Source: Vibrio sp. SCSIO 43137
Lineage (GTDB): Bacteria; Pseudomonadota; Gammaproteobacteria; Enterobacterales; Vibrionaceae
Length of the DNA: 64,000 nucleotides
Direction: 5' to 3'
Assembly: GCF_028201475.1 (NCBI RefSeq)
Contig: NZ_CP116384.1
Location: 620,001 to 684,000 of the forward strand
Shown in pieces: positions 14,600-17,783 of the stretch. The position numbers and the translations under genes are program-made. Each line of letters opens with the position of its first letter. Position 1 is the first letter of the stretch. The notes beneath the pieces were generated by a model. The model had not been told where the DNA came from, did no database searches, and saw nothing but the letters and a program-made list of their open reading frames with translations.

Positions 14600-15415
14600 A
14601 TGATAAGAATAGAAAAGATTACCCCTCATATCGGTGCACGTATCCACGGGGTAGATTTAGCAAATTGTAGCGCAACAGAGCTGGATGAAGTTTATCAGGC
14701 TCTGCTTGAGCATCAGGTTATCTTTTTGGATGAGCAAAATTTTTCTCCAGAGCAGCAACTGGCTATCGCTGAACGCTTTGGCAATCTTGAACCTGTACAT
14801 CCATTTTTCCCTAACGTCGAAAATGCTCCTCAGGTCAGTGTTATCGAAACAACACGGGGTAATGCTCCGATGGAAAGTTATTGGCATACGGATTTAACCT
14901 GGCGCAAAAATCCTTCAAAGGCTTCTTTACTACATGCGCAGCATGTTCCTCAGGCTGGTGGCGACACCATCTGGTGTTCAATGAGTGCGGTATTTGATTC
15001 TCTGGACGAAGAGTTAAAAGCCAGATTAAGAAAACTGACGGCAACTCATTCTTTGGTAGCCTTTGAAGGGATAGATGAAGAGCAGGTTGAACTGGAGTGG
15101 CATAAAAAACTGCTAAAAACAGCAGAGGAGAATCCGCCAGTGGTTCACCCTGTCGTAACTGTTCATCCTGAAAGCGGAAGAGAGATCCTTTATATCAATG
15201 AACAGTTTACCCGCTACATTAACGAACTGGAGCGCAAAGAGAGCGATAAACTACTGAACCAGCTTTTTGCAATGGCCCGCCGCCCTGAATATCAGGTTCG
15301 TTTTAAATGGAACAAAGGTTCACTAGCCATCTGGGATAACCGCACGACCCAACACTATGCCGTTATTGATTACGGTGATACTCCACGAAAAATGCATAGA
15401 GTGACGGTGACTTAA
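14600..15415 (+). CDS. TauD/TfdA-family Fe(II)/2-oxoglutarate dioxygenase
   Basis: 271-residue cytosolic oxygenase. The iron-binding facial triad is visible as His96 and Asp98 in YWHTDLTW and distal His252 in TTQHYAVIDY, with the 2-oxoglutarate-binding Arg267 in HRVTV. Family members hydroxylate sulfonates such as taurine, aryloxyalkanoates or other carboxylates. No sulfonate transporter is nearby, so I do not assign taurine as substrate. The ribosome site before the ATG is weak. It lies downstream of the HxlR regulator on the same strand. Confidence 0.85.
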   Translation: MIRIEKITPHIGARIHGVDLANCSATELDEVYQALLEHQVIFLDEQNFSPEQQLAIAERFGNLEPVHPFFPNVENAPQVSVIETTRGNAPMESYWHTDLTWRKNPSKASLLHAQHVPQAGGDTIWCSMSAVFDSLDEELKARLRKLTATHSLVAFEGIDEEQVELEWHKKLLKTAEENPPVVHPVVTVHPESGREILYINEQFTRYINELERKESDKLLNQLFAMARRPEYQVRFKWNKGSLAIWDNRTTQHYAVIDYGDTPRKMHRVTVT

Positions 15416-15453: not shown

Positions 15454-15530
15454 ATTTAGCCAAATAGAGCTAAATGGTTCAATTTAGCTTCTTAGGGCTA
15501 AATTTGCCATTTTAGCCTTTAGAGGCTAAA
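15454..15530 (+). promoter_or_regulatory. Six TTTAGC/GCTAAA half-sites at exact 14-bp spacing (operator array)
   Basis: TTTAGC begins at 15455, 15483 and 15511; its inverse GCTAAA begins at 15469, 15497 and 15525. All six half-sites are therefore exactly 14 bp apart and alternate in orientation, giving three palindromes with 8-base spacers repeated every 28 bp. The third palindrome falls between the predicted -35 and -10 elements of the satD-like gene. The array is best read as an operator for that gene's own helix-turn-helix product or another dimeric regulator. Confidence 0.75.
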
Positions 15531-15532
15531 GT
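15504..15532 (+). promoter_or_regulatory. Candidate promoter of the satD-DUF3307 operon
   Basis: TTGCCA (15504-15509) and TAAAGT (15527-15532) are spaced by 17 bp and would start transcription about 20 bases before the GTG start. The third operator palindrome occupies the spacer, consistent with repression. Confidence 0.4.
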
Positions 15533-15557
15533 AAGCTTGTGCAGAAAGGAGTGTAAT

Positions 15558-16208
15558 GTGAACTCAGAGCAAAAACTAATAGCAGTGATTAGCGGCGACA
15601 TAGTCAATTCGACTAAACTTTCGGCTGTACAGTATGAACAGTTACTTAGGCGGATTAAATATGTCCAGCAACTCATAAGTGAAAAAGAAGTACTGAACGC
15701 GCATAGTATATATCGTGGTGATGAGTTTCAAAGTGTAATACATGACATTGAAAATGCTCTGAGGTACACCATCGCATATCGTGTTGGGATTAAGGCGCTA
15801 GGGAAAGGGTTCGATTGCCGAATCAGCTTCGCTATCGCAGCTAATGCAGACTTACGTGAGCAAGTGTCAGAGTCGATGGGGCAGGCATTTGTTTTGTCAG
15901 GACGAGGATTAAAAGAGTTAAAAAGTAATAGAATGCTGTTTAGCTCAGAATTTCAGGAATTGAACGAACAATTTGAGCTGTACATTCAGTATCTGGATAA
16001 GCAAATTTCCGACCTAACCTTACGTCAATGCGAAGTCATGTTGCCTATGCTTATGGCGAATGAAGAGATAAGTGTGAGTAAGTTGGCAGAACAACTGGAT
16101 ATAGCTATTGCTACCGCTAGCAAATCATTGAAAGCATCGGGGTGGGGCTTAATCAGGGAATTAAACGAAAAGTTTGTAAATAAGGTTATAGGACTTAGGA
16201 ATGACTGA
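15558..16208 (+). CDS. SatD-family protein: cyclase-like domain plus C-terminal HTH
   Basis: 216 residues from GTG 15558, chosen for AAAGGAG six bases upstream; an in-frame TTG at 15537 is less likely. It resembles SatD (named in Streptococcus mutans). Residues 6-130 look like a reduced class III nucleotidyl-cyclase fold: SGDIVNST with metal-type Asp14, RGDEFQ with Asp55, CRISFAIA, then GQAFVLSGRGL, which aligns with the GDAVNLAARL region of cyclases and keeps Arg116 but has Val in place of the catalytic Asn. Residues about 155-195 form a helix-turn-helix (EEISVSKLAEQLDIAIATASKSL). Catalysis is doubtful. The gene overlaps the DUF3307 gene by 8 bases. The cyclase reading is my inference. Confidence 0.7.
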   Translation: MNSEQKLIAVISGDIVNSTKLSAVQYEQLLRRIKYVQQLISEKEVLNAHSIYRGDEFQSVIHDIENALRYTIAYRVGIKALGKGFDCRISFAIAANADLREQVSESMGQAFVLSGRGLKELKSNRMLFSSEFQELNEQFELYIQYLDKQISDLTLRQCEVMLPMLMANEEISVSKLAEQLDIAIATASKSLKASGWGLIRELNEKFVNKVIGLRND

Positions 16209-16959
16209 TTTTTCTCAATTGTTGGTGGCATTGCTTCTTATGCATGTTGTATGCGAGTTTTATCTGCAGCCAGCTAAATGGGAAAAATCTAAAAGAGAAA
16301 GAAAGTACCAATCTGTCGAGCTTTATTATTACTCCATCATGCATAGTATTGCGGTTGTATTACCCGTTCTTTTGCTAAATATCAGTTGGGTACCAGCTTT
16401 GTATCTTGCGCTCGCCGTTATGGCAGGTCACTTTATTATCGAGCTCTGGAAAAATACGGGAACTGATGACAAAAGGCTCTCATATTTAATAATTAGTCAG
16501 GGTTTATATCTCTTGGGCTATGTAGTCATTACATGTTTTTTGACAGCGGAGACTCGATTCGAGGCCGTGTTAGAACATGAAAAATTTTGGCATGTCGTTC
16601 TTATTATTTTTGCATATTTACTAATTTTTAAGCCTGCTTCATTGCTGATTGGAAGTGTGTTACGAAAACATTCTATATCCGCTCCGGATGCAAATAGTAA
16701 TGACGATGGACTAACTTCTGGCGGTGAGTTGATTGGGTATCTGGAGCGAACGTTAATATTAACTTTTACTCTGGTTGGCAGCTATGCGGCTGTGGGATTT
16801 GTATTGGCTGCTAAATCAATATTCAGGTTCGGGGAGTTGAATAGAGCAGATGACAGAAGAATGACGGAGTATGTCCTAGTCGGTTCATTGCTGTCGGTTG
16901 TTATTACGACAATAGTCGGTGCTTTGATATCACTTTGGTTGGGAATATCAATAAACTAA
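16201..16959 (+). CDS. DUF3307 integral membrane protein
   Basis: 252-residue membrane protein with about seven hydrophobic segments. The N-terminal LLVALLLMHVVCEFYLQPAKW and the HSIAVVLPVLLL region match DUF3307, including conserved His residues near the start (His15) and in MHS. The function of the family is unknown to me. It is translationally coupled to the satD-like gene, an association seen repeatedly for these two families, so the two products probably work together, with the membrane protein as partner or effector of the soluble one. Confidence 0.8.
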   Translation: MTDFSQLLVALLLMHVVCEFYLQPAKWEKSKRERKYQSVELYYYSIMHSIAVVLPVLLLNISWVPALYLALAVMAGHFIIELWKNTGTDDKRLSYLIISQGLYLLGYVVITCFLTAETRFEAVLEHEKFWHVVLIIFAYLLIFKPASLLIGSVLRKHSISAPDANSNDDGLTSGGELIGYLERTLILTFTLVGSYAAVGFVLAAKSIFRFGELNRADDRRMTEYVLVGSLLSVVITTIVGALISLWLGISIN

Positions 16960-17008: not shown

Positions 17009-17656
17009 CTACACCTCTTCACCCGCTTCATCCTCTTCAACAATATCTGTTTCTGTACTGGCCTCTTTAACCCATTGCCGGATAGCACTGCTGTTAAGTA
17101 CCTTCTGCTGATATTTTTTTGCTCCTTCCGATAGCTCTATCCCGTAGGTTTCAAATCTTAGGGCTATGGGGGCGTACATAGCGTCGGCGATGGACCATTC
17201 GCCAAATAACCAGCCATCGGGATACTGTTCCTGTTGCTCTGACCAAATTACGTCTATACGGGCAATATCCTTGATGGCGCCTTCGCTTAACTCTACTTTC
17301 CTTCGGGCACGAATATTCATTGGCAGTTCGTTTCGTAAATCACTAAAGCCGGAGTGCATTTCTGCTGCGATAGCGCGCGCCTTGGCCTTCTTTGCAATGT
17401 TGTCCGGCCATGCCTTTCCCTGTAAAAACTGTTCGTTCACATACTCCAGAATAGCAAGGGAGTCCCAGACGGTAATATCATTGTCTACAAGGGTTGGCAC
17501 TTTTGCCGCTGGAGTGATGTTTTCCAGCCTTTGATAAAAGTCATTAGTAAACAGTTTAAGTTTAACAATCTCTATATCCAGTTGATGCTGAGAGAAGATC
17601 AGCCAGGCGCGAAGCGACCAGCTTGAGTAGTTTTGATTGCCGATAAATAGCTGCAT
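17009..17656 (-). CDS. Glutathione S-transferase family protein
   Basis: 215-residue cytosolic GST. The start is set at ATG 17656 because GGAGG lies five bases upstream and MQLFIGNQNYSSWSLRAWL is the usual start of this subgroup; the longer frame would add 16 residues. The N-terminal thioredoxin fold holds the SSWSLR active-site segment and TPAAKVPTLVDNDITVWDSLAI, the glutathione gamma-glutamyl site. The C-terminal helical domain contains WLFGEWSIADAMYAP. Substrate unknown. A LysR regulator is divergently transcribed 127 bp away and is its likely controller. Confidence 0.88.
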   Translation of the reverse strand: MQLFIGNQNYSSWSLRAWLIFSQHQLDIEIVKLKLFTNDFYQRLENITPAAKVPTLVDNDITVWDSLAILEYVNEQFLQGKAWPDNIAKKAKARAIAAEMHSGFSDLRNELPMNIRARRKVELSEGAIKDIARIDVIWSEQQEQYPDGWLFGEWSIADAMYAPIALRFETYGIELSEGAKKYQQKVLNSSAIRQWVKEASTETDIVEEDEAGEEV

Positions 17657-17783
17657 TTTAGCCTCCATACTTATTGAGTTGTGACTTGTCGTGTGAGTTG
17701 TCACAATATCTGATTGTTTTATGGTGAACTAACGGATAGTTTTAATAGGTCAGTTCAATAAAACCGATGGATGGATTACAGAG

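Follow-up and report, generated by a model that had tools for sequence, protein, structure and literature searches.

A SatD–DUF3307 gene pair in Vibrio with a cyclase-fold domain and an upstream palindrome array: a candidate autorepressor circuit for a membrane protein

Locus organisation

The window, a 64,000-nucleotide stretch of Vibrio sp. SCSIO 43137 contig NZ_CP116384.1, carries on its forward strand a SatD-like gene (15558..16208) followed by a gene for a DUF3307 membrane protein of 252 amino acids (16201..16959), with a palindrome array at 15455-15530. Both open reading frames lie where a preliminary description, made from the letters alone, had placed them; it had called them fused by overlap, and an overlap of 8 nt does exist, but the genes are separate. 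The best start of satD is the GTG at 15558, giving 216 amino acids as in the identical database protein P0001, to which a precomputed source table assigns PF16264.12. The window protein, which has 184 homologues, scores 26.5 bits against PF16264 (SatD; E 6e-6), below the curated Pfam cut-off of 29, while its partner matches PF11750 (DUF3307) with 66.6 bits (E 2.7e-18), above the curated cut-off of 23. The pair is flanked by genes named by eye as a TauD/TfdA-like dioxygenase (14600-15415) and a GST-like protein (17009-17704), the latter convergent to the pair with its end at 17009; the two flanks together were not found in the relatives searched.

A cyclase fold and a helix-turn-helix in SatD

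The N-terminal part of SatD (residues 7-130; 15576..15947, forward strand) has a cyclase-homology fold, as evidenced by an AF2 model, Foldseek and VIA-align, and thereby contains the ferredoxin-like core that the preliminary description had predicted. A profile-profile alignment with class III cyclases reached 79% probability (pairwise E 1.6e-5), compared with at most 0.5% for column-shuffled controls. It pairs the SatD motif GDIV (D14, codon 15597-15599) with FADIV, the first-metal motif of the cyclases, RGDEFQ (D55, codon 15720-15722) with IGDAVM, their second-metal motif, and the RIS strand with their RIG strand, in agreement with the earlier reading of Asp14 and Asp55 as metal aspartates and of CRISFAIA as a cyclase strand. 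The fourth proposed correspondence, GQAFVLSGRGL with GDAVNLAARL, falls outside this local alignment and is not borne out by it.

Residues D14, S18, G54 and D55 each occur in 94 of 96 aligned SatD proteins, the remaining two being gapped there, and R88 (95/96), Q58 (92/96) and R53 (90/96) are similarly conserved. Arg116, previously described as kept, is arginine in only 56 of the 96 proteins and in 16 of 38 after dereplication. The reported loss of the cyclase Asn holds, since by the preliminary alignment this position is V112 in the window protein and V in 48/96; SatD therefore lacks the transition-state Asn of class III cyclases and is variable at the Arg. Neither PF00211 (class III cyclase) nor PF00990 (GGDEF) matches SatD in Pfam at E≤1, and RGDEF stands in place of a GGDEF/GGEEF motif. 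A "degenerate active site" thus describes the Asn and Arg positions but not the metal pair, and metal binding is probably kept, to judge by conservation. Given this combination, we read SatD as binding a nucleotide more than catalysing a reaction; without the cyclase Asn, and often without the Arg, the domain could also be a mere dimerisation scaffold. The genome of this strain has 67 GGDEF matches and zero PF00211 matches.

The C-terminus (residues 155-193; 16020..16136, forward strand) carries the helix-turn-helix noted earlier, with weak matches to several helix-turn-helix families in Pfam and agreeing helices in the AF2 model. Among PDB sequences the SatD profile matches AdcR best (E 0.0018), in the helix-turn-helix region only.

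A palindrome array with conserved geometry

Directly upstream of satD lie three exact TTTAGC-N8-GCTAAA palindromes with a 28-bp period (15455..15474, 15483..15502 and 15511..15530), and the genome holds no further exact copy. A spacer of 8 bp likewise separates each palindrome from the next, which puts half-sites of alternating orientation at 14-bp intervals. Three 28-bp repeats amount arithmetically to 8.0 turns at 10.5 bp per turn, a spacing that would suit helical protein assembly. The preliminary description does not mention this array, though its start coordinate falls there. A copy with one mismatch (TTTATC-N8-GCTAAA) within the DUF3307 gene at 16259-16278 may be due to chance. A putative promoter-like element, TTGCCA-17-TAAAGT (15504..15532, forward strand; 9/12 in a consensus scan), surrounds the third palindrome; such hits are no commoner than in shuffled sequence, and the sharing of one offset to the array by 11 of 32 loci is only suggestive.

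In most relatives an upstream array keeps the geometry and changes the letters. An array test allowing periods of 24-32 was applied to 102 of 114 SatD loci (the 12 omitted being duplicates, second copies and edge cases), and 88 upstream regions beat all 60 dinucleotide shuffles, although related species among the loci mean that these counts are not independent. The best period in 77 significant triples was 28 (55), 29 (21) or 27 (1), and 29 of 38 representatives sharing <70% identity beat all shuffles, every one at 28 or 29. The test failed at 14 loci (L015, L019, L052, L054, L074, L086, L088, L100-L103, L107, L109, L111). By exact matching, at least two same-letter palindromes occur in 77 of 99 upstream regions (duplicate loci included, as well as L094, scored on a wrong 5,942-nt stretch), compared with 14 of 1980 shuffles and 7 of 1813 control windows.

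The palindromes read AGTAAC/GTTACT in another genome of the genus, TATTAC/GTAATA in Flavobacterium, ATTCGC types in Serratia, CAACC types in Parabacteroides and on an Enterobacter kobei plasmid, and TGACCC and TGAACC types in other classes, while GTTCG/CGAAC palindromes precede the pair on a haloarchaeal plasmid (L110, Haloplanus, upstream of 2829). Longer arrays in 29-bp steps comprise seven palindromes in Aeromonas (L047, upstream of 4342) and five in Alteromonas (L050, upstream of 4348). Operator letters and SatD diverge in parallel (r 0.65), and partial correlations with the N-terminal domain of SatD (0.25) and its helix-turn-helix (0.21) indicate that the letters track the former as closely as the latter, so that recognition by the helix-turn-helix is not singled out.

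Gene pairing, distribution and genomic context

Surveys from either gene found the two as neighbours. Starting from DUF3307, with the best 80 of 551 confirmed relatives among the matches listed in a scan for the peptide AAKSIFRF (a set that leaves out the rest of the 551 and short DUF3307 proteins), SatD is directly upstream at 80/80 loci, although SatD is a truncated open reading frame in L070 and at a contig edge in L094, and DUF3307 is split in L051. Starting from SatD, DUF3307 follows in 16/16 places outside the Vibrio genome itself. An exception outside these samples, in genome G784, is a DUF3307 remnant without SatD, with an intact pair elsewhere in the same genome.

The pair is accessory, occurring in 20 of 196 genomes of the genus, the present one included. 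A plasmid collection holds 19 records with a DUF3307 match, and a SatD-like gene stands in front in 7/7 inspected, one of which, from Fusobacterium, is chromosome-sized. On the 3,770-bp E. coli plasmid pEC34A (L105) the pair is the main cargo, accompanied by rop, mobA and one small open reading frame; five Klebsiella records of 3,770 bp carry the same DUF3307, and a 4,424-bp Klebsiella plasmid (L106) carries a relative. L105 and L106 are both small and ColE1-like, with a SatD–DUF3307 pair as the main cargo. Lesions affect either gene: DUF3307 is broken and SatD intact in G010 and L051, G011 has a stop near the DUF3307 start, and SatD is frameshifted with DUF3307 intact in L070 and in G797, where the breaks adjoin runs of one base and are possibly an assembly error. 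The DUF3307 lesions favour the idea of a repressor with a harmful partner, and the SatD lesions count against it.

A phage origin of the pair was considered and rejected, as the window DUF3307 matches none of 50,697 phage records. One Acinetobacter phage (two records) weakly matches part of the Fusobacterium DUF3307, and phage scans with that protein and with SatD confirmed none; these scans are insensitive, since the one IMG/VR contig among the loci (L112) does encode a SatD.

We likewise reject a known defence system, on the grounds that no component matched and the flanking genes are not defence genes. PADLOC gave two weak matches for SatD (pAgo_II, E 0.0035; CasR, E 0.025), none for the window DUF3307, and a KwaB match (E 0.0039) in one of 40 DUF3307 proteins; no Pycsar component in PADLOC-DB 2.0.0 matched the pair at E≤1. 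Among flanking open reading frames (128 of 154, at 37 of 39 loci) 15 PADLOC families appeared, each in one or two genes and several of them helicase components, and Pfam placed no family in more than 4 of the 128.

The DUF3307 membrane partner

Hydropathy places membrane segments in DUF3307 but not in SatD. The AF2 model of DUF3307 is all helical (pLDDT 87.6), and its comparison with the PDB gave no convincing fold match; Pfam detected no cyclic-nucleotide-binding domain at E≤1. Across 40 aligned DUF3307 proteins seven residues of the C-terminal half are invariant (E182, R183, K205, S206, R209, E223, S232), and ten of the N-terminal half are each kept in 36-39 (H15, D19, Q23, H44, H77, D81, K84, D99, Q100, H103). 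The latter look like a polar or metal cluster. All ten are kept in 87 of 116 distinct sequences; the window protein retains five of them along with all seven C-half residues. Comparable losses occur in Psychromonas (L026, L027), Salinivibrio (L052, L054, L111) and L011, L057, L074, L102 and L135, and of the 18 aligned rows with seven or fewer N-half residues several are fragments or very divergent proteins. On these conservation patterns the two halves seem to be constrained differently, and the function of the N-terminal half may be altered in the window copy.

A proposed autorepressor circuit

The earlier notion of a cyclase-like sensor with a membrane partner gains support from the fold, the profile alignment and the conserved metal aspartates. 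The helix-turn-helix of SatD and the operator-like array before its own gene further point to transcriptional autoregulation. We posit, as a probable though by no means assured reading, that SatD is a nucleotide-responsive, cooperative autorepressor which uses the conserved array as its operator to control DUF3307, its dedicated membrane effector. The cyclase-fold domain of this one-component regulator would be the sensor, binding a nucleotide together with a divalent metal, and the C-terminal helix-turn-helix would bind the array, where several SatD dimers could cover the promoter cooperatively; the alternation of half-sites every 14 bp, with palindromes every 28-29 bp, would let them fit side by side. 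A change in the sensed ligand would release the assembly and allow a burst of expression of the two-gene operon, until newly made SatD closed it again. The output would be the overlapping DUF3307 protein, its dose held low, possibly because it is harmful.

If correct, this would mean that a transcription factor with an operator array of its own can use the cyclase/GGDEF/Cas10 palm for sensing. Our search of the literature found no mechanism for SatD and none for DUF3307, the latter being named in one paper, in a gene table; for these two families the analysis now provides a fold, a likely target on the DNA and a circuit that can be tested. The circuit might also explain a published puzzle, that of an accessory gene whose loss appears lethal. 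In S. pyogenes, satD alone among accessory genes ranks in the top quarter of essentiality, and it occurs in 178 of 249 genomes (PMC11323703); this would fit SatD repressing a harmful DUF3307 if the two genes are neighbours there. A broader and rather unlikely extension would make the pair a self-silencing module, widespread in bacteria and haloarchaea, whose one-component repressor senses a nucleotide with its cyclase fold, assembles on a strict lattice of alternating half-sites every 14 bp and holds down a membrane effector that is lethal once released; S. pyogenes satD would then act as an antitoxin-like repressor instead of serving a housekeeping function.

Taken further, the autorepressor model becomes a toxin-antitoxin-like or addiction module, in which DUF3307 is harmful, SatD silences it by repression and perhaps by direct contact, and loss of SatD alone kills or cripples the cell. 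The autorepressor-first, overlapping gene order, the accessory distribution (20/196), the dominance of the pair on pEC34A, the copies with broken DUF3307 and intact SatD (G010, L051) and, provided that DUF3307 is the neighbour there, the essentiality of S. pyogenes satD (PMC11323703) all agree with it, whereas the frameshifted satD beside intact DUF3307 in L070 and, assembly error aside, G797, the G784 remnant and the loss of five of ten conserved N-half residues from the window protein argue against it; on balance we regard it as tentative and somewhat unlikely.

To a like degree doubtful is a homeostatic role, whereby DUF3307 transports or alters an ion or small molecule, harms nothing, and has its level adjusted by SatD. 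The conserved polar residues of its helical N-terminal half (H15, D19, H77, D81, D99, H103) would accord with such a role, as would the S. mutans sat genes, which are reported in connection with acid tolerance and to rise two- to threefold with fructose (PMC12077213). Sporadic distribution and carriage on small plasmids would however be unusual for a housekeeping function, and the essentiality of an accessory satD (PMC11323703) also speaks against it.

It is improbable that SatD works as a nucleotidyl cyclase or a related enzyme and signals to DUF3307 through its product in a Pycsar-like manner, with the helix-turn-helix giving only feedback on expression: the fold and both metal aspartates are kept, yet the Asn position is Val in the window protein, Arg116 is variable, Pfam detects no cyclic-nucleotide-binding domain in DUF3307, PADLOC finds no Pycsar match, and the flanks show no defence context. 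Regular repeats can be iterons, but it is very improbable that the array serves replication or partition in the manner of iterons, or acts as an RNA element, with no relation to SatD: such arrays immediately precede satD on plasmids and on chromosomes from several phyla, and every Rfam match falls well short of its gathering score.

Comparison with known systems

SatD shares with class III nucleotidyl cyclases (PF00211) the fold, the order of the two metal-Asp motifs and the RIS/RIG strand, and departs from them in lacking a Pfam match, in its Val and variable Arg, and in adding a helix-turn-helix and an operator array. From GGDEF diguanylate cyclases (PF00990) it differs in reading R-G-D for G-G-D, in its DNA-binding C-terminus and in the absence of a family match. 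The likeness to Pycsar drawn in the preliminary description extends to a cyclase-fold soluble protein beside a membrane protein; it is not sustained further, as the PADLOC matches are few, weak and to other systems, the partner has no detected cyclic-nucleotide-binding domain, the flanks are not defence genes, and SatD has its own helix-turn-helix and array.

The C-terminal helix-turn-helix resembles that of MarR/AdcR-type and other winged-helix repressors, from which SatD is set apart by a match confined to that region, a cyclase-fold sensor and a multi-palindrome array. As in autoregulated toxin-antitoxin operons, a proposed regulator comes first, its partner overlaps, putative operators may lie at the promoter, and the genes are accessory or plasmid-borne and paired in a two-gene operon, with the G784 remnant as the exception; unlike in those operons, the partner is a large membrane protein without a known fold match. 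Mycobacterial cyclase–helix-turn-helix fusions join a cyclase and a DNA-binding domain in one chain, as SatD does.
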